A DNA stretch of 64,000 nt from Blastococcus saxobsidens DD2 (GTDB lineage Bacteria > Actinomycetota > Actinomycetes > Mycobacteriales > Geodermatophilaceae): NCBI RefSeq assembly GCF_000284015.1, contig NC_016943.1, positions 3,637,541 through 3,701,540 on the forward strand, written 5' to 3'. Positions 54,349 to 64,000 of this stretch are shown here, one piece after another (within the stretch, counting starts at the first letter, position 1; each line of letters begins with the position of its first letter). Made by a program: the position numbers and the translations under genes. The notes under the pieces are model-generated. The model saw only the letters and a list, made by a program, of their open reading frames with translations. It was not told the DNA's origin and did not search any database.

Positions 54349-55434
54349 TCAGTCCGCCGGAGCAAGCTCCGGCGCCGGCGGGCGGAGGTCCAGCGCCGGG
54401 GTGCGCGTCTCGGGCTGCGCGCGCCGCCGCCACCACGCGATCAGCGCCACGTAGCCTCCGAGGCCGGCCAGTCCGATGGCGGCCGGCACGGGGCCGGACA
54501 GCGCCGCAGCGGCCACTCCGGGGCCCAGCAGCCCGGCCAGCAGCAGCACCAGCACGTCGGTGACCACGTGCAGCGCGATCGCCGCTTCCAGCCCGCCGGT
54601 CAGGACCACGATCGCCGAGGCGGTCAGGCCGAACGCGAAGCGGGCGAGGAACGTCGCCAGGTCCGGCGGCAGGTGGACGAGCGAGAACAGGACCGAGCTG
54701 ACCACGGCGGCCACCACCGCTCCGCTCGTCCGGGCGCCGGTCCAGCCGGCGACCGTCTGGCTCAGGTACCCCCGGAACAGGTACTCCTCGGCCGCGGACC
54801 GCACCGGCGTGGTCAGCAGGACGACGACGAGCAGCCAGCCCCACGACCGGACCGGTCCCTCGCTGCCACCGTCCTCGGCAGTGACGTGGAGGAGCACCGA
54901 CAGCCCCAGGGCCGTTCCGGCGGCGAGCGTCGCCAGCAGGACCAGCCGAGGCAGCAGCCGCCGGCGCAACCGCGCGCGCACCGACGACGACCATCCCGCA
55001 GCCATGCCGTGCGCCACGGCCCACGCCAGCCAGACCACCGGCACCGCGACGGCGAGGGCGGCGTTCGTGAGCAGCAGGACGACCGGGTCGGTCGCGGCGA
55101 GCAGCGACAGGGCGGGGCGGACACCGGTGAGGATGCCGATCACGCCGAGGAGCGCGCCGACCACCACGGCGGCCACGCCCAGCAGGCCCCACCCGACCAG
55201 CGGCCGCCACCACGCCCAGTCGCGGGCGCGCATGGCGAGCAGGTACGGCTGCGGCTCGTCGTGCGGCGGCGTGCCGGGAGGCGGCGGCCAGACGACGGGC
55301 GCCGGAGCCGGGGCGGTACCGGCCGCCTGGGGCCACGGGCTGAGCGGGAACCGTCCCGGCTCCGGGCGCAGCGTCGGCGGCGGGCCGGCGTAGGGTGCCC
55401 CGGCCGGCCCGCCACCGGGTCCCGGCGGGGTCAT
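54349..55434 (-). CDS. CPBP-family intramembrane metalloprotease
   Basis: This 361-residue protein has a Pro-rich N-terminal 60 residues and about eight membrane helices. The CAAX-protease motifs are [27 protein letters not shown] and a later H in [12 protein letters not shown]. Such enzymes process prenylated or small peptide substrates; no partner is visible. The ATG at 55434 overlaps the gltX stop by four bases. Confidence 0.85.
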
Positions 55435-56906
55435 CCCGCGGTGGCGACCGTGCGGGCCGCGGCCAGGCGCGCCAACGTCCGCTCCCGGCCCAGCAGCTCC
55501 ATCGACTCGTACAGCGGCGGGGACACCGTCCGGCCGCTCACCGCGACGCGCACCGGCCCGAAGGCCTGCCGCGGCTTGCGGCCCAGGCCCTCCACCAGCG
55601 CCTCCTTCAGCGCCTGCTCGATCGCCGGAGTGGTCCACCCGGGGAGGTCGCGCAGCGCCGTCGCCGCCGCGTCGAGCACCTCGACCGCGGCCTCGCCGGA
55701 CAGCTGCTTTTCCGCCGCCGCAGGATCGATCTCCACCTCGTCGACGAAGAGGAAGCCCAGCAGGCCGACCGCCTCCGACAGCACGATCATGCGCTCCTGG
55801 GCCAGCGGCGCGATCGCCGACAGCACCGCGGCCTGCTCCGCCGTCGGCGGCTCCGCGACGAGGCCGGCGCCGGCCAGGTACGGGGTCACCCGCTCGGTGA
55901 ACTCCTCGACCGGCAGGGCCCGCAGGTGCGTGGCGTTGATCGCCTCGGCCTTCTTGAGGTCGAAGCGCGCCGGGTTGGCGCTGACGCGGGTGACGTCGAA
56001 GGCCGCGACCATCTCGGCCGTCGAGAAGATGTCCCGGTCCTCGGCGATCGACCAGCCCAGCAGCGCCAGGTAGTTGGCGAACCCCTCCGGCAGGAAACCC
56101 CGCTCCCGGTACACGTCGAGGTTGGACTGCGGATCGCGCTTGGAGAGCTTCTTGCTGCCCTCCCCGGTGACGTAGGGCAGGTGGCCGAACCGGGGGGTGC
56201 CCTGAGCGACGCCGATGTCGGTCAGCGCGCCGTAGAGGGCGAGCTGGCGCGGGGTCGAGGGCAGCAGGTCCTCGCCACGCAGCACGTCGGTGATCTGCAT
56301 CAGGGCGTCGTCGACCGGGTTGACGAAGGGGTACAGCGGCGCACCGTTGCCCCGGACGAGCACGAAGTCCGGCACGGACCCGGCGGCGAACCGCACCTCG
56401 CCGCGCACCAGGTCGGTCCAGACCAGGTCCTCGTCGGGCATGCGCAGCCGCAGCACCGGCTGGCGGCCCTCGTCCCGGAAGGCGGTCTTCTGCGCGTCGG
56501 TGAGGAACCGGTCGGCGTTGTCGTAGCCGAGCTTGGGGTCCTGGCCGGCCGCGCGCCGGCGGGCGTCGACCTCCTCGTTGGTGGAGAAGGACTCGTAGGC
56601 GTGCCCGGCCTCGAGCAGCTTCGCCGCCACCTCGCGGTAGATGTCGTACCGCTCCGACTGGCGGTAGGGGCCGTGCGGACCGCCGACCTCGGGGCCCTCG
56701 TCCCACTCCAGGCCCAGCCACCGCAGGCAGTCGAGCAGGTGGCGGTAGGACTCCTCGGAGTCGCGGGAGGCGTCGGTGTCCTCGATGCGGAAGACGAACG
56801 TGCCGCCCGAGTGCCGGGCGTGCGCCCAGTTGAACAGCGCCGTCCGCATCAGCCCGACGTGGACCATGCCCGTCGGGGACGGGCAGAAGCGGGTGCGCAC
56901 CGTCAC
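55431..56906 (-). CDS. gltX: Glutamyl-tRNA synthetase
   Basis: GltX charges tRNA-Glu and, in species without GlnRS, also tRNA-Gln. The 491-residue protein has the HIGH-like [19 protein letters not shown] and KMSKS-like [11 protein letters not shown]. The GTG at 56906 overlaps the FAH gene stop as GTGA. Its close linkage with tRNA-Glu and tRNA-Gln genes is notable. Confidence 0.96.
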
Positions 56907-57715
56907 CGGGCGCCACCGGCGGTGGAGACGGCCTCGGACTCGGTCACCGTGTTGGTGAGCGTGCCCAGCCCCTGGATCGTGACCGTGACCGTCTGGCCCG
57001 GGCGGATCGGGCCCACGCCCGACGGGGTGCCGGTCAGCACGACGTCACCGGGCAGCAGGGTCATCACCTGCGAGATGTAGGAGATCAGGGTGGGGATGTC
57101 GAAGAGCAGCTGGCTGGTGCGACCGGACTGGCGGCGCTCCCCGTCGACGTCGCAGGTGACCTCGAGGTCGGCGGCGTCCAGGCCGATGCCGGGCAGGTCG
57201 GTCTCGATCCACGGGCCCAGGGGGCAGAACGAGTCGAAGCCCTTGGCCCGGGTCCACTGTCCGTCGCTCTTCTGCATGTCCCGCTCGGTCACGTCGTTGC
57301 CGACCGTGTAGCCGAACACGCTGCCCAGCGCCTGCTCCGGCGTCACGTTGCGGGCACCGCGGGCGCCGATGACGACGGCGAGCTCCGCCTCGTGGTGCAC
57401 GTTCGTGCTGCCCGGCGGGATGCGGATGGCGTCGCCGGGGCCGATGACCGACGTGGACGGCTTGAGGAACAGCAGGGGCTGCTCCGGGGCGTCCCCGGTG
57501 TTCATCTCCTTGACGTGCTCGGCGTAGTTCTTGCCGACGCACACCACCTTGCTCGGCAGGATCGGCGAGAGCAGCCGGATGTCGGCCTGCGCGAAGCGCG
57601 TACCGGTGAAGGAGATCTGGCCGAAGGGGTGGCCCTCGATCTGGGCGACCTGGCCGTCCCCGTCGAGGACGCCGAAGGACATGCCCTGCGGGGAGGCGAA
57701 ACGGACGATGCGCAC
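56903..57715 (-). CDS. Fumarylacetoacetate hydrolase-family protein
   Basis: This 270-residue protein has the FAH metal and catalytic pattern [25 protein letters not shown] (E109, E111), [29 protein letters not shown] and TGTPSGVGP. The family includes fumarylpyruvate hydrolases and isomerases; the substrate is unknown. It overlaps gltX and diverges from the ABM gene. Confidence 0.9.
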
Positions 57716-57876
57716 GACCCGACACTAGCCGCCGGGCGGCAGGGTGCCTGCCGACCAGCCGGATCCCGGACGGAGCCCGGCTCTTTCCTCGCCCGCGGTC
57801 GGGGGCCGGGGACGTACCGCTCCGCGGGCCGGGGGACGGCGAATGGCGGCGGTGTCGTCCGGAGGACGACGATGTC

Positions 57877-58206
57877 ATGGTGATCCTGATCGTCGTGAAG
57901 TTCCCTGTCCGCCCCGACCGCGCCGACGAATGGGCCGGGCTGGCCGCCGACTACGCCCGCGCGGTGAACGCCGAGGAGGGCTCGCTGTTCTTCGAGTGGT
58001 CGCGGAGCCTCGAGGAGCCCGACACGTTCGTCTGCGTCGAGGGCTTCCGGGACGCCGCGGCCGGCGGTGCGCACGTGGCCACCGACGCCTTCACGCGCTT
58101 CGTCGAGCAGGCGCCGGACCTGGTGTCGGCCCAGCCGCAGATCATCTACGTGGACGCCCCCGAGGTCTCCGGCTGGGGCCCGATGGGCGAGATCCAGCCG
58201 CGCTGA
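57877..58206 (+). CDS. Antibiotic biosynthesis monooxygenase (ABM) domain protein
   Basis: This 109-residue protein has the ABM ferredoxin-like fold (VILIVVKFPVRPDRADEWAGLA, LFFEWSRSLEEPDTFVCVEGFRD, HVATDAFTRFV). Members act as small cofactor-free oxygenases or heme-related enzymes; the substrate is unknown. The ATG has GGAGG about 11 bases upstream. It lies 9 bases before the amidotransferase. Confidence 0.85.
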   Translation: MVILIVVKFPVRPDRADEWAGLAADYARAVNAEEGSLFFEWSRSLEEPDTFVCVEGFRDAAAGGAHVATDAFTRFVEQAPDLVSAQPQIIYVDAPEVSGWGPMGEIQPR

Positions 58207-58215
58207 CCCCCGGTC

Positions 58216-58944
58216 GTGCGCCCCTTCCTGCTGCTCTCGTCCCGCGCCGAGGACGAGGCGGCCGACGCGGAGTACGCCGCGTTCCGGCGCTTCACCCGGC
58301 TTTCCGCGGACCGGCTGCACCGCATCCGGCTGGAGGCCGGCCCGCTGCCGGCGCTGGACCTGGACGGCTACGCCGGGGTCTTCCTCGGCGGCGGGCCGTT
58401 CAACTCCAGCGACCCCGCGGCGGAGAAGTCGGCCGTCCAGGTCCGGGTGGAGCGGGAGGTCGGCGAGCTGCTGGACGAGCTCGTCGAGCGGGATCAGCCC
58501 TTCTTCGGGGCCTGCTACGGCATCGGCACGCTGGGCACCCACCAGGGCGGGGTGGTCGACCGCACGTACGCCGAGCCGGTGTCGGCGGTGGAGGTGACGC
58601 TCACGCCCGCGGGCCGCGACGACCCGCTGCTGGCCGGGATCCCCGACCGGTTCCAGGCCTTCGCCGGGCACAAGGAGGCCTGCCGGGAGCTGCCGCCCGG
58701 GGCGGTGCTGCTGGCGTCGTCGGCGACCTGCCCCGTGCAGATGTTCAAGGTGCGGCAGAACCTCTACGCCACCCAGTTCCACCCCGAGCTCGACGTCGCC
58801 GGGATCGTGCAGCGGGTGCGCATCTACCAGCACGCCGGGTACTTCGCGCCCAGCGAGACCGACGCGGTGATCGGGCGGCTGACCCCCGCGGCCGTGACCG
58901 CGCCCGGACGGCTGCTGGCGAACTTCGTCGCCCGCTACGGCTGA
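58216..58944 (+). CDS. Class I glutamine amidotransferase-like protein
   Basis: This 242-residue protein has FLGGGPFN, the nucleophile C100 in GACYGIGTLG, and the catalytic HPE in YATQFHPELD. It is GuaA-like but lacks a synthetase domain. The substrate is unknown; a partner may use ammonia it releases. It overlaps the convergent cimA 3' end by 10 bases. Confidence 0.88.
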   Translation: MRPFLLLSSRAEDEAADAEYAAFRRFTRLSADRLHRIRLEAGPLPALDLDGYAGVFLGGGPFNSSDPAAEKSAVQVRVEREVGELLDELVERDQPFFGACYGIGTLGTHQGGVVDRTYAEPVSAVEVTLTPAGRDDPLLAGIPDRFQAFAGHKEACRELPPGAVLLASSATCPVQMFKVRQNLYATQFHPELDVAGIVQRVRIYQHAGYFAPSETDAVIGRLTPAAVTAPGRLLANFVARYG

Positions 58945-60515
58945 GGACGGCGCAGGACGGCGTAGGCGAGCGCGTCCACCAGCGCGTGCCACGACGCCTC
59001 GACGATGTTGGCGTGCACCCCGACGGTGGTCCACTCCCCCGCCCCGTCGGTGGTGTCGATGAGCACCCGGGTGGTGGCGCTCGTGCCGCCCTTCCAGCCC
59101 AGGATGCGGACCTTGTAGTCGGCCAGCGCGACGTCGGCCAGCTGCGGGTAGCGGCTCACCAGCGCCTGGCGCAGCGCGTTGTCCAGCGCATTGACCGGGC
59201 CGTTCCCCTCGCCGGTGCTGATGATCCGCTCCCCGTCGACGTGCACCTTCACCGTGGCCTCGCTGACCACCACGCCGTTGCGCCAGTGCTCGACCGAGGT
59301 CCTGTAGCTCTCCAGCTCGAACAGCGGCGGCGGGGCCTCGGGCAGCTGGGACCGCAGCAGCAGTTCGAAGGAGGCGTCGGCAGCCTCGAACGACCAGCCG
59401 TCGGCCTCCAGGACCTTCACCTGGTCCACGACCCGGCCGATGGCATCGGCCTGGCCGGCGAGATCCACACCGAGCTCCCGGCCCTTGAGCTCGACCGACG
59501 CCCGGCCGGCCATCTCGGTGACCAGGATGCGCATGTCGTTGCCCACGACGGTGGGGTCGAGGTGGTTGTACAACCCCGGGCTGACCTTGATGGCGCTGGC
59601 GTGCAGACCTGCCTTGTGCGCGAAGGCCGAGGCACCCACGTAGGGCTGGTGGTCGTCGGGGGCGATGTTGGCCAGCTCCGCGATGGCGTGGCTGACCCGT
59701 TGCAGCTCCGGCAGGCACTCGGCCGGCACCGCGGGGATGCCCATCTTGGTGACCAGGTTCGCGACGAGCACGAAGGTGTCGGCATTGCCCGCCCGCTCCC
59801 CGTAGCCGTTCGCCGTCCCCTGCACGTGGGTGACCCCGGCCTCGACCGCGGCGAGGGTGTTGGCGACGGCGCAGCCGGTGTCGTCCTGGCAGTGGATGCC
59901 GAGCTTCCCGGGTGTCCGCGCCCGCACGTCGGCGACGACCCGGCCGACCCCCATCGGCAGCATGCCGCCGTTGGTGTCGCAGAGGACGCCGACCTCCGCG
60001 CCCGCGGCGAACGCCGCGTCCAGCACCCGCACCCCGTAGCCGGGGTCGGCGGCGTAGCCGTCGAAGAAGTGCTCGCAGTCGACGAACACCCGCCGGCCGT
60101 GTCCGACCAGGAAGGCGACGGTGTCGGCCACCATCGCCAGGTTCTCCTCCAGCGTGGTGCGCAGCGCCTCCCGCACGTGCCGGACGTCGGACTTGGCGAC
60201 CAGGCACACGACCGGCGTCTCCGCGTCCAGCAGGGCCCGCACCTGCAGGTCGTCCTCCACCGCGACCCCGGCCTTGCGGGTCGAGCCGAACGCGACCAGC
60301 TGCGCGTGCTTCAACTGGAGCTCGGTGCGCGCCCGGGAGAAGAACTCGGTGTCCTTGGGCAGGGCGCCGGGCCAGCCCCCCTCGATGTAGCCGACCCCGA
60401 TCTCGTCCAGCAGGCGGGCGACCGCGAGCTTGTCGGCGACCGAGTAGCTGACGCCCTCCCGCTGCGCGCCGTCGCGCAGGGTCGTGTCGAAGACGTGGAA
60501 GTCGGTGCTGGTCAT
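58935..60515 (-). CDS. cimA: (R)-citramalate synthase
   Basis: CimA condenses pyruvate and acetyl-CoA to citramalate, a threonine-independent path to 2-oxobutyrate and isoleucine. The 526-residue DRE-TIM protein begins FHVFDTTLRDGAQREGVSYS and has ARTPGKLGIHCQDDTGCAVAN and VQGTANGYGERAGNAD. The C-terminal LeuA dimer region senses the end product. The distance to the upstream leader is 32 bases; the leader shows attenuation features. Isopropylmalate/homocitrate synthases are the alternative, but length and TTLRDGAQREG favour CimA. Confidence 0.93.
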   Translation of the reverse strand: MTSTDFHVFDTTLRDGAQREGVSYSVADKLAVARLLDEIGVGYIEGGWPGALPKDTEFFSRARTELQLKHAQLVAFGSTRKAGVAVEDDLQVRALLDAETPVVCLVAKSDVRHVREALRTTLEENLAMVADTVAFLVGHGRRVFVDCEHFFDGYAADPGYGVRVLDAAFAAGAEVGVLCDTNGGMLPMGVGRVVADVRARTPGKLGIHCQDDTGCAVANTLAAVEAGVTHVQGTANGYGERAGNADTFVLVANLVTKMGIPAVPAECLPELQRVSHAIAELANIAPDDHQPYVGASAFAHKAGLHASAIKVSPGLYNHLDPTVVGNDMRILVTEMAGRASVELKGRELGVDLAGQADAIGRVVDQVKVLEADGWSFEAADASFELLLRSQLPEAPPPLFELESYRTSVEHWRNGVVVSEATVKVHVDGERIISTGEGNGPVNALDNALRQALVSRYPQLADVALADYKVRILGWKGGTSATTRVLIDTTDGAGEWTTVGVHANIVEASWHALVDALAYAVLRRPQP

Positions 60516-60547
60516 GGGATCTCCGCGGGGACGTGGGCCCGAACACG

Positions 60548-60574
60548 AAAAAGACCCCCCGGTACGGGAGGTCT
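60548..60574 (-). terminator. Attenuator terminator before cimA
   Basis: AGACCTCCCG and CGGGGGGTCT form a 10-bp stem (one U-G pair) with a 3-base loop, followed immediately by five Ts on the minus strand. This is the only terminator in the window with a clear T tract, and it lies upstream of, not after, a gene, as attenuators do. Confidence 0.85.
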
Positions 60575-60602
60575 GCGCGCAGTCGGGGAGCTGACTGCGC
60601 GC
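60575..60602 (-). promoter_or_regulatory. First hairpin of cimA attenuator
   Basis: GCGCGCAGTC and GACTGCGCGC pair over 10 bases with an 8-base loop AGCTCCCC. The loop can pair with the terminator's 3' arm (about 8 bp), creating an alternative fold. Confidence 0.75.
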
Positions 60603-60634
60603 TAGGCGATGAGAATCGTGCCGCTGGGGTGCAT
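60602..60634 (-). CDS. Putative cimA leader peptide
   Basis: ATG at 60634 encodes MHPSGTILIA and ends with TAG immediately at the first hairpin. The Thr-Ile-Leu-Ile codons ACG-ATT-CTC-ATC include ATT, rare in such GC-rich DNA. Ribosome stalling here would block the 5' arm of the first hairpin. Upstream TGTGATTCACTGACC may serve as a -10 with a leaderless start; the ribosome site is weak. Confidence 0.65.
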   Translation of the reverse strand: MHPSGTILIA

Positions 60635-60694
60635 CGCGGTCAGTGAATCACAGCGGGACGGTCTCGAGCACGATCGCCGTCCTCACCGTGGGTC

Positions 60695-60726
60695 CGCCGT
60701 CCTCGGGCTGCAGCCCGAGGACGGCG
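60695..60726 (-). terminator. Terminator after leuB (32-base palindrome)
   Basis: A perfect inverted repeat of 16 bases per arm, with no extra loop bases, begins 38 bases past the leuB stop. It probably ends the serA-leuB transcript and separates it from the cimA leader. Confidence 0.7.
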
Positions 60727-60764
60727 ACGGTGCGGCGAGGTCGGCCGCCCCGGGCTGGCCCCGC

Positions 60765-61787
60765 TCAGCCGCCGGCGAGCGCGGCCAGGCGGTCGCCGAC
60801 GTCCGAGGTGCGGATCGGCCGCTGCGGGTCGCGGGTGGACAGGTCGAAGGCGACGGCGGCGTCCACCTTGCGGGCCTGCTCCGCGCGACCCAGGTGATCC
60901 AGCAGCAGCGCGACCGACAGCACCGTCGCGGTCGGGTCGGCGATCCCCTGGCCGGCGATGTCGGGCGCGGAGCCGTGGACGGGCTCGAACATGCTCGGAT
61001 TGGTGCCCGAGGCGTCGAGGTTCCCGCTCGCGGCCAGGCCGATCCCCCCGGTCACCGCGGCGGCGATGTCGGTGACGATGTCGCCGAAGAGGTTGTCGGT
61101 GACGATGACGTCGTAGCGGCCCGGGTCGGTGATGAAGAACATCGAGGCGGCGTCGACGTGCTGGTAGGCGACGGCGACCTCGGGGAACTCGACCGAGACC
61201 TCCTCGACGGTCCGCGACCAGAGGCCGCCGGCATGGGTGAGGACGTTGGTCTTGTGGATCAGGGTCAGGTGCCTGCGCGGACGGGCGGCGGCCCGCTCGA
61301 AGGCGTACCGGACCACCCGCTCGACCCCGAACGCGGTGTTGAGGCTGACCTCGGTCGCGACCTCGTGCGGGGTGTCCCGGCGCAGCACACCGCCGTTCCC
61401 CACGTAGGGGCCCTCGGTGCCCTCCCGGACGCAGAGCATGTCGATCGGGCCGGGGTCGGCCAGCGGGCTCCGGACGCCGTCGAAGAGCCGGGCCGGGCGC
61501 AGGTTGACGTGGTGGTCGAGCTCGAAGCGCAGCCGCAGCAGGAGGCCGCGCTCCAGGATGCCCGGCGGCACCCCGGGGTCGCCGATCGCGCCGAGCAGGA
61601 TCGCGTCGTGCTGGCGCAGCTCGTCGAGCACGGTGTCCGGCAGCAGCTCACCGGTCCGCTGCCACCGGGCCGCCCCGAGGTCGTACGGGGCCGTCTCCAG
61701 ATCGGGGGCGACCGCGCGGAGGACCTTCAGTCCCTCCGCCACGACCTCCGGGCCGATGCCGTCTCCAGGGATCACTGCCAGGCGCAT
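60765..61787 (-). CDS. leuB: 3-isopropylmalate dehydrogenase
   Basis: LeuB oxidises 3-isopropylmalate in leucine synthesis. The 340-residue protein has [61 protein letters not shown] and [18 protein letters not shown]. It lies 16 bases after serA, a pairing frequent in actinobacteria. Confidence 0.95.
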
Positions 61788-61803
61788 GGGAAGCGACCCT
61801 AGG

Positions 61804-63405
61804 TCAGAGCGTCGTGAGGTCCGCGGCCCGGGCGTCCTTCGCCCCGATGAGCCCGGCGATCTCCTCGAGCAGCTCGGCTCCGACGGGGCTGTCCACGGTC
61901 ACGGCCATGAGCGCTTCGCCCCCCTCGTCGGCCCGGCTGACCTGGGCGCCGGCGATGTTGATCCCGGCCTCGCCCAGCGCCGCCCCGACCGCGCCGACGA
62001 TCCCCGGGCGGTCGGCGTAGACGAAGAACAGCAGGTGGCCGGACGCGGCCAGGTCGATCTCGAAGCCGGCCACCTCGGTCAGCCGCGGCACCTGGTTCTT
62101 GCCGAAGAGCGTGCCGGAGACGGTCACCTGGGTGCCGTCGGCCATGGCGCCGCAGACCCGGACGTAGTTCCGGTAGGTCGGGCTCTCCGGGTCGCTGGTC
62201 AGGGCGATCTCCAGGCCGCGCTGCTCGGCGAGCAGCGGGGCGTTGACGTAGGTGACCTGCTCCTCGACGACGTCGGAGAAGACGCCCTTGAGCACGGCCA
62301 GGGAGAGCACCGAGACGTCGAACTCGGCGAGCTTGCCGCGGACGTCCACGGTGACCGACTGCGCCAGGCCGCCGGCGACGGAGGTGAACACCCGCCCCAG
62401 CTTCTCGGCCAGCGGGAGCCCCGGGCGCACGTCCTCGGCCACCACGCCGCCGGCCTGCACGTTCACCGCGTCCGGCACGAACTCGCCCAGCAGCGCCAGG
62501 CGCACCGAGCGTGCGACCGCGGCGCCGGCCTTGTCCTGGGCCTCCGTCGTCGAGGCACCGAGGTGCGGGGTGACGACGGCGTTCGGCAGGGCGAACAGGG
62601 GGCTGTCGGTGCACGGCTCGGTGGCGTAGACGTCGATGCCCGCGGCGCCCACCTGCCCCGACCGCAGCGCGTCGGCCAGCGCCGCCTCGTCGACCAGCCC
62701 ACCACGGGCAGCGTTGACGACGATCACCCCCCGCTTCGTGGTGGCCAGCTCGGCGGCGCCGATGAGGCCGACGGTCTCCGGCGTCCTGGGCAGGTGGATG
62801 GTCAGGAAGTCCGACTCCCGGAGCAGCTCCTCGAGCGACACCATGCGCACACCCAGCTGGGCGGCACGCCCCGGCTGGATGTACGGGTCGTAGGCGATCA
62901 GCTCGACGTCGAACGCCGCCAGCCGCTGGGCCACCAGCTGACCGATGCGCCCGAGGCCCACCACGCCGACCGTCTTCTCGGTGACCTCGACGCCGGTGAA
63001 CGCCGACCGCTTCCACTGGCCCTCGCGCAGCGACGCGTCGGCGGCCGGGATGTGCCGGGCGGCGGCCAGCAGCAGGGCCACGGCGTGTTCGGCGGCGCTG
63101 ACGATGTTGGAGGTGGGGGCATTCACGACCATGACGCCGCGCTCGGTGGCGGCGGCCACGTCGACGTTGTCCAGGCCGATCCCCGCGCGGGCGACCACCT
63201 TCAGGTTCGGGGCCGCGGCGAGCGCCTCGGCGTCGATCTGCGTCGCGCTGCGGATCATCACGGCAGCCGCCTCGGCCAGCGCGGGCAGCAGTGCCGACCG
63301 GTCGGCCCCGTCGACATGCCGGATCTCGACGCCGGTCCCGAGCACCCCCAGGACGCTGGGCGCGAGCTCTTCGGCGATCAGGACGACGGGCGCGGACGTG
63401 GTCAC
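61804..63405 (-). CDS. serA: D-3-phosphoglycerate dehydrogenase
   Basis: SerA starts serine synthesis. The 533-residue long form has the Rossmann motif [17 protein letters not shown], the substrate region [10 protein letters not shown], the catalytic [17 protein letters not shown] and a C-terminal intervening plus ACT domain ([20 protein letters not shown]). The ACT domain suggests serine feedback. The GTG at 63405 (M-T-T-S-A-P-V) is the natural start. It diverges from the Q/Y/G-rich membrane protein. Confidence 0.96.
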
Positions 63406-63530
63406 GGGTGGACAGCCTAGGGAGGCGGCGGACCCGCGGGGCCACCGCCCAGGTCCTTGCTCCGGCGGGGGCGCCCCGACATCCTGACGGCGGAGAACCG
63501 GAATCATCCGGCGCCCGACGGAGGAGAACA

Positions 63531-64000
63531 GTGAGCCAGTCCGACGACCACGGTCGTTCCGAGTCCCAGCCCTCCGGTCCCGGCGGCGGGCCCCAGTACG
63601 GCCGGCCGGAGCACGGTCAGGGGCAGTACGGCGACCCCGCCTACACGCAGCAGTTCACGACGCCGGTCTCCTACGGCCAGCAGCCCTACCCCCAGCAGTA
63701 CGGCCAGCAGTACGGCCAGCCGGCGGGCTTCCAGCAGCCCTACGGCGCCTACGGCACGTCCGCGGCCCCCGCCAAGCCCGGTGGGGTGATCACCGCTGCG
63801 GTGCTCGGCTTCGTCTTCGGGGCCTTCGGTGCCCTGATCAGCTTGTTCCTGATCATCGCGGGGGCGACGGCCACCACCGTCGGGGACGACCTGGAGCAGG
63901 AGGTCCCCGGTTTCGGCTCGATGGCCGGCGCGGTCGGTGGCGCCCTGCTGGTGGTCGGCCTGCTGGCCCTGGCCTGGACGGTGGTGATGATCTGGGGCTC
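63531..64000 (+). CDS. Q/Y/G-rich N-terminus membrane protein (partial at right edge)
   Basis: The GTG at 63531, with GGAGGAG about 9 bases upstream, opens a frame that runs off the window. Residues 1-80 are Gln, Tyr, Gly and Pro-rich with YGQQ-type repeats. Two membrane helices follow at about 85-111 and 133-155. It resembles actinobacterial proteins with a disordered cytoplasmic tail and two to four membrane segments. Function unknown. Confidence 0.8.
   Translation, partial: MSQSDDHGRSESQPSGPGGGPQYGRPEHGQGQYGDPAYTQQFTTPVSYGQQPYPQQYGQQYGQPAGFQQPYGAYGTSAAPAKPGGVITAAVLGFVFGAFGALISLFLIIAGATATTVGDDLEQEVPGFGSMAGAVGGALLVVGLLALAWTVVMIWG

Follow-up and report, generated by a model that had tools for sequence, protein, structure and literature searches.

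A putative isoleucine-responsive leader-peptide attenuator without a recognisable antiterminator upstream of cimA in Blastococcus saxobsidens and other Actinomycetota

The window analysed in this study is a stretch of 64,000 nucleotides from Blastococcus saxobsidens DD2 (contig NC_016943.1, positions 3,637,541 to 3,701,540). Its minus strand carries all the parts of a candidate attenuator, namely a leader ORF, a hairpin (H1) and an intrinsic terminator, upstream of the citramalate synthase gene cimA (Table 1). This gene opens the threonine-independent route to isoleucine, which proceeds from pyruvate. A sequence-only reading of the same DNA had listed a 10-codon ORF, a 10-bp hairpin and a 10-bp terminator located 32 bases before cimA, and all of these are present at the locus, with 32 nt between the terminator and the cimA start codon. 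The hairpin was also said to touch the stop codon of the ORF. The two elements do adjoin, but they do more than touch, as the G of the TAG codon is the first paired base of H1. On its other side, H1 is followed by the terminator with a gap of 0 nt at the B. saxobsidens locus.

Table 1. Positions of the candidate attenuator parts and neighbouring genes, numbered from the first letter of the window.
Feature	Coordinates	Strand	Description and basis
leuB	60765..61787	-	Same-strand upstream neighbour, context rather than attenuator part; NF002898, 577 bits
Predicted extended −10 promoter element	60642..60650	-	TGn + TTCACT, 7 nt 5′ of the leader ATG; from comparison
Leader ORF	60602..60634	-	10 codons + TAG, MHPSGTILIA; ATG at 60634, TAG at 60604-60602; sequence and conservation in relatives
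Hairpin H1	60575..60602	-	10 bp; arms GCGCGCAGTC/GACTGCGCGC (60602-60575), loop AGCTCCCC; folding and covariation
Intrinsic terminator	60548..60574	-	10 bp; arms AGACCTCCCG/CGGGGGGTCT (60574-60552), loop TAC, T run reaching 60548; terminator scan, folding and covariation
Shine-Dalgarno-like GGAGA of cimA	60520..60524	-	Read from sequence
cimA	58935..60515	-	Citramalate synthase, putative controlled gene, ATG at 60515; TIGR00977, 615 bits (cutoff 450)

The 89-nt leader RNA is predicted to fold with a free energy of −42.9 kcal/mol (z −5.5), and none of 200 shuffled sequences was equally stable. The computed energy of the terminator alone is −16.8 kcal/mol. It is the sole terminator-like place within 5 kb on both strands, where three overlapping matches were obtained and 0.5 were expected. 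An Rfam scan of positions 55000-64000, with E values up to 1, returned two weak matches, neither of which is a T-box. These candidates, sR035 and PYLIS_2 (19.9 bits), were rejected as known elements, given that they fall far under the gathering scores and lie on the opposite strand. By inspection, a possible pause site was spotted 11 nt past H1. In addition, the segment after the terminator (60516-60551, minus strand) contains a CGTGTTCGGG-like stretch that is alike in many family members and that appears by eye to be partly complementary to the GGCACGA of the leader.

We looked for cimA in 112 genomes from the family and 150 from the order, with 18 genomes common to both samples. Upstream DNA was taken from 115 distinct loci representing a subset of these genomes, after removal of the duplicates L001 and L060. 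A motif filter that demanded TAG followed by GCGC, plus a second GCGC, located the element before cimA in 106 of the 115 loci, in each case as a short ORF with TAG, then a GCGC stem, then a terminator. Among the misses, L073 is cut by a contig end, and L049 (genome G136) and L057 (genome G194) have covariance-model matches just 5′ of cimA despite failing the motif. The element is lacking in L040, L052, L055, L108, L109 and L114, where the end of leuB lies no more than approximately 90 nt from cimA.

The covariance model, termed R1, was built from 40 of the family and order leaders. When applied to the 4.9-Mb genome of B. saxobsidens itself, R1 identifies only two sites with E < 1, which are the cimA leader (92 bits) and a leader upstream of ilvB. 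For the order sample, cimA places were available for 120 of the 150 genomes, with the short fragments in G116, G218 and G238 excluded from the count. An R1 match is located less than 400 nt upstream of cimA in 78 of these 120 genomes, and no match near cimA was retained by the strict filters in the remaining 42. The excluded G116 has a weak R1 match beside its cimA fragment.

An exact pattern, composed of the stop codon, H1 and the start of the terminator, was also scanned over the genome collection and yielded at least 120 records. The cimA gene lies immediately 3′ in 112 of the 120 records listed, including representatives from Blastococcus, Geodermatophilus, Micromonospora, Actinoplanes, Asanoa, Nakamurella, Cellulosimicrobium and Cellulomonas. 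Three records without a cimA match (L180, L183 and L217) are of the same type and are positioned at the edge of their stretch. Five apparent chance matches (L174, L197, L219, L235 and L254) were left out of the set of 115 pattern-scan leaders described below. At least 29 of the 112 cimA-linked loci, some of which are cut, have leuB on the same strand no more than 2.5 kb upstream. Because leuB is upstream in only this portion of the loci, the element is associated with cimA and not with leuB.

The leader peptide has a family consensus of approximately M-x-x-T-G-T-I-I-I-A. In B. saxobsidens, the codons at positions −4, −3 and −2 before the stop are ATT (Ile), CTC (Leu) and ATC (Ile), respectively. 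Isoleucine occupies these three positions in 75, 89 and 97 of the 106 family and order leaders, and position −1 in one. The corresponding counts for the 115 pattern-scan leaders are 95, 106 and 38. Outside the family type, isoleucine is found at −4 and −3 in 74 and 87 of 90 leaders and at −2 in 15 of 90. At least two isoleucine codons are present among positions −4 to −2 in 100 of 106 family and order leaders and in 110 of 115 pattern-scan leaders. Ten codons is the usual length (76 of 106 and 92 of 115, respectively), although the start was assigned by script as the in-frame start codon nearest ten codons (with ATG taken first in the set of 106), which biases the lengths. The stop codon is TAG in all 106 leaders, also when any stop is allowed, and TGA is used at locus L121.

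Codon choice at the isoleucine positions is also distinctive. The 106 family and order leaders use 240 ATC, 31 ATT and no ATA codons. The 115 pattern-scan leaders use 158 ATT and 84 ATC, whereas the cimA coding sequences of the same loci, counted from BLAST-aligned coding sequence with a best match above 200 bits, contain 11 ATT, 1539 ATC and 6 ATA. For 42 loci (L002-L044), which are mostly from Geodermatophilaceae, the leaders carry 8 ATT and 106 ATC codons, compared to no ATT and 567 ATC in cimA. The leaders are thus enriched in ATT, a rare codon, and the contrast is large, with p-values that are inflated by common ancestry. A slower, wobble-read ATT codon may sharpen the response to isoleucine. 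In seven loci with the cimA element (L142, L143 and L145-L149; positions ~1501-1622) from a family with large genomes, the leader carries the codon pair ATT ATT and H1 is larger by approximately 45 nt. The in-frame stop of these leaders is inside H1, yet the isoleucine codons hold their distance to H1, and a ribosome well supplied with isoleucine would be expected to open H1 there too.

A scan for the sigma-70 consensus gave no promoter match at the B. saxobsidens locus. Comparison among relatives reveals a TGn-NNNNNT box that precedes the leader start by 5-9 nt. This box is present in 93 of 106 family and order loci and in 86 of 90 loci of other lineages, compared to 11.3 and 4.7, respectively, in shuffled sequences. 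The start codon itself is ATG in 101 of the 106 and GTG in 84 of the 90, in the same position with respect to the box. Cores resembling a Shine-Dalgarno sequence are found before the leader in only 3 of 106 and 0 of 90 relatives; upstream of cimA, 92 of 106 have one within 40 nt. Because the −10 box abuts the start codon and Shine-Dalgarno-like cores are rare, the leader mRNA is predicted to be leaderless. Several leader peptides of Streptomyces lividans are likewise described as leaderless in an excerpt of PMC8079986. In loci of the Micromonospora type, a CCTCCCAAAA-like stretch recurs beyond the −10 box, approximately 30-37 nt 5′ of the leader start, and is possibly a −35 element or a regulator site.

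Both stems are supported by covariation. In a 40-row alignment, H1 and the terminator together contain 27 cells that changed on both sides, compared to 5.2 in shuffled alignments, and none of 500 shuffles reached the observed value. The same is true for 84 distinct rows outside the family type (39 changes versus 4.9; 0 of 500) and for 31 matches across cimA, ilvB and other genes (98 versus 28; 0 of 500), with the reservation that these two alignments were fitted to R1 and therefore lean towards the model. Controls in which the stems were slid from their true positions gave far lower pair counts. A comparison of relatives for a conserved leader ORF and covarying stems had been set beforehand as a check on the sequence-only reading, and both features are kept. 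A transcription start past the terminator would also have spoken against that reading, and the conserved promoter-like box is instead located 5′ of the leader. Of the 106 loci, 90 have a gap of 0 nt between H1 and the terminator, 10 have a gap of 1 nt and 6 a gap of 2 nt; these loci were found via cimA, though their filter demanded TAG-GCGC and a second GCGC. A 0-nt gap also occurs in 113 of 115 pattern-scan loci, a figure that is not independent, as the pattern itself demanded GCGCAGACCTCCC.

To model the ribosome, we folded the RNA left free when the A site is located at codon −4, −3, −2 or the stop. A ribosome covers 12 nt downstream according to an excerpt of PMC4833913, and the footprint at the stop codon was given a reach of 9 nt in one folding run and 12 nt in another. 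Under nested folding, the mean probability of the terminator did not fall below 0.967 in any ribosome state that was modelled. With the 12-nt reach the mean is at least 0.98 in each state for both the 106 and the 115 leaders, and with the 9-nt reach at the stop it is 0.967, with single loci as low as 0.62. The lowest single-locus probabilities are 0.18 (a pattern-scan locus, A site at −2) and 0.37 (L019, no ribosome). The effect of alternative folds is small and peaks at the stop with the 9-nt reach and at codon −2 with the 12-nt reach, and its sign consequently depends on the footprint. For most loci, nested folding (without pseudoknots or steric effects) produced no alternative fold that excludes the terminator. 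The computed structure upstream of the terminator weakens stepwise, being approximately −16 kcal/mol when codon −4 is in the A site, approximately −10 at −3, −3 to −6 at −2 and −2 to −4 at the stop. H1 thus weakens with ribosome position and could therefore read where the ribosome sits.

Attenuators are recognised by a short ORF with codons for the product of the pathway and by a predicted terminator between this ORF and the structural gene. Here, ATC and ATT isoleucine codons are conserved by position in the leader sequence, and terminator scan and covariation place a terminator between the leader ORF and cimA. Sequence comparison shows the leader ORF, its isoleucine codons, H1, the terminator, the promoter-like element and the linkage to cimA. 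The original proposal of a leader-peptide attenuator for an isoleucine-pathway gene is thus upheld by the conservation of the ORF, isoleucine codons, hairpin and terminator in relatives. We consider it very likely that the element controls cimA by ribosome-mediated transcription attenuation, with charged tRNA-Ile as the signal that is sensed; ribosome stalling and induction are expected by analogy with known biology.

In the proposed mechanism, transcription would begin at or next to the leader start codon, and a ribosome would load on the leaderless mRNA. When isoleucine is ample, a ribosome at the stop codon would cover the 5′ arm of H1 and block its formation, and the terminator would close before cimA is reached. 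When isoleucine is scarce, the ribosome would stall on the isoleucine codons, mostly at −4 to −2, with its leading edge at, or close to, the base of H1, permitting H1 to fold wholly or partly. Presumably, an intact H1 would hinder closure of the terminator base at the exit channel of the RNA polymerase, or would pause the enzyme, and cimA would be transcribed.

The least secure step is how H1 might antagonise a terminator with which it does not overlap. Our preferred candidate is a ribosome-gated H1 that touches the terminator, which we put forward tentatively, at somewhat below even chances. An intact H1 should correspond to read-through because the stalled state should be ON for a biosynthetic gene, and contact with the terminator foot, or timing, is proposed because the two stems share no nucleotides. 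The preference for isoleucine at −4 and −3 outside the family type implies that a stalled ribosome would leave much of H1 available. The frequent isoleucine at −2 in the family and order leaders fits less well, as a stall there would open most of H1. The contact model must also accommodate the 16 of 106 loci in which 1-2 nt separate H1 from the terminator. Moreover, the absence of translation would give read-through in the preferred model, unlike the untranslated state of the E. coli trp attenuator. A study of hairpin clusters (PMC8355165) argues that contiguous hairpins promote termination, which is contrary to a role for H1 as an antiterminator. Substitution of leader codons at Streptomyces coelicolor ilvB was without effect, as stated in PMC1262725, and this also counts against the model.

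The sequence-only reading had favoured a model in which the H1 loop and the terminator compete, with the C-rich loop base-pairing to the G-rich 3′ terminator arm and stalling promoting this interaction. The complementarity is indeed present in the window sequence. Loops are rich in pyrimidines in the Geodermatophilaceae type (mean 0.87 for 25 pattern-scan loci) and in one group of the Micromonosporaceae type (mean 0.93, with all loop positions pyrimidine in 37 of 54), and with the 12-nt reach the alternative is likeliest at codon −2 (terminator mean 0.984-0.986, lowest 0.18), which is the right sign. A model for Corynebacterium ilvB-II, in an excerpt of PMC10272879, has the same pairing between the P1 loop and the right shoulder of the terminator. 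However, such pairing does not covary in the cimA element, where 1 cell changed on both sides versus 2.6 in shuffled alignments and the covariation score is under the shuffle mean. The terminator also keeps its high mean probability in all states modelled by nested folding, and the H1 loops of several other lineages appear by eye to lack complementarity to the terminator arm. Competition of this kind is therefore not supported, and we regard it as unlikely. About equally improbable is a composite terminator, in which H1 and the terminator act jointly and termination falls when a ribosome stalled close to the stop opens H1. H1 does abut the terminator, and the isoleucine at −2 in 97 of 106 family and order leaders would place a stalled ribosome where most of H1 is opened. 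Outside the family type, however, isoleucine resides at −4 and −3 and seldom at −2, and the terminator is already strong alone. In addition, a ribosome at the stop codon would open H1 still more, which is the wrong sign.

Two other explanations are far less probable. The region might carry a plain terminator or insulator for leuB, with the short ORF being incidental. The position of leuB upstream on the same strand is compatible with this idea, as is its proximity to cimA in the six loci without the element, but leuB was seen upstream in only some of the pattern-scan loci that carry the element (at least 29 of 112). Moreover, different families share the isoleucine codons, the placement of these codons and the promoter box. 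We give a similarly minimal likelihood to the possibility that the released leader RNA also acts in trans, through its C-rich loop, on ribosome-binding sites resembling GGGAG. The RNA released would be short and would contain a pyrimidine-rich loop and a terminator, and a leader peptide with a trans role reportedly exists in another system. Nevertheless, the loop is not kept across all the lineages that retain the element.

As in the E. coli trp and his attenuators (PMC1183508), there are pathway codons in a leader peptide, a terminator before the gene and a hairpin that would be covered by a ribosome at the stop codon. The cimA element differs in that no antiterminator overlapping the terminator was found, the ORF usually has 10 codons, and the mRNA is predicted to be leaderless. 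The ilvB-II leader of Corynebacterium and the ilvB1 leader of Mycobacterium tuberculosis are alike in having codons for branched-chain amino acids in a short uORF and one stem before the terminator (PMC10272879 and PMC13236596, in excerpt). In those systems, a stalled ribosome is the ON state and a ribosome at the stop codon is the OFF state, and the same portion of PMC13236596 presents codon-swap evidence and a mutually exclusive antiterminator for ilvB1. Their antiterminators exclude the terminator, whereas in the cimA element the stems are non-overlapping, H1 starts at the stop codon and isoleucine dominates. Relative to ilvB-II as described in the excerpt of PMC10272879, the associated gene is cimA and the 10-codon ORF is upstream of H1. 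The leuL, trpL, ilvL and other leaders of S. lividans also comprise a short, mostly leaderless ORF followed by hairpins, and the set of eight leader peptides in the portion of PMC8079986 used here does not include cimA.

The leuA LEU element and the ileS T-box (PMC1262725, in part) are further cases of RNA control of branched-chain genes in the same phylum. The former is a pseudoknot and the latter is thought to act on translation according to the same part of that source, and the cimA leader has no T-box match. In the LEU element, a run of leucine codons pairs with the Shine-Dalgarno site of the gene. The cimA leader has two isoleucine codons and one leucine codon. A search of the open-access literature found no report of a leader-peptide attenuator for cimA or citramalate synthase, and cimA is absent from the portion of the 2005 survey of Actinobacteria that was examined (PMC1262725). 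We describe the element as a probable attenuator of the leader-peptide kind that has a new target gene and in which no antiterminator can be recognised. These comparisons suggest that isoleucine feedback acts at the RNA level on the pyruvate route in many actinobacteria. Actinobacterial attenuators with missing parts were already noted in 2005 (PMC1262725, in part), and a minimal leader of approximately 90 nt makes this puzzle directly testable.

The second R1 site in B. saxobsidens is a candidate attenuator of the same layout before ilvB (L119; G000:C1:3706306-3706386, minus strand), beyond the end of the window. It consists of the ORF MLADARTCGVLVIA, TAG, a hairpin and a terminator, and scores 36.7 bits with R1. 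For 17 of the 18 family genomes in the order sample, an R1 match is present on the cimA strand approximately 7.0-12.8 kb upstream, and only L119 among these was identified as preceding ilvB. In a sample of the phylum, 99 of 396 genomes have an R1 match with E up to 0.01. Among 31 R1 matches that were read in detail, 11 are associated with cimA, 18 with ilvB (one from B. saxobsidens itself), and one with a leuA-like gene, and one is unassigned. The ilvB leaders end mostly in codons for valine, leucine and isoleucine, and in distant families of the phylum (L124-L139 and L144) the two-hairpin layout occurs before ilvB with endings such as LVVVT or IVVVP, in some cases with weak T runs. The gene at L141 (1501-1577, minus strand), named by eye as leuA-like, is preceded by a leader ending in NLLLT and by the same pair of hairpin and terminator.

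Because the stems do not overlap, mutually exclusive folds do not readily explain this class. It is conceivable, though on balance doubtful, that these leaders constitute a class without a base-paired antiterminator that occurs widely across Actinomycetota, upstream of cimA, ilvB and probably leuA, and in which the neighbouring hairpin decides termination at the exit channel or by pausing and ATT codons sharpen the response. Finally, the R1 match at L140 (1501-1579, minus strand; 46 bits) is accompanied by a reading frame that resembles ilvD by eye and lies on the opposite strand.
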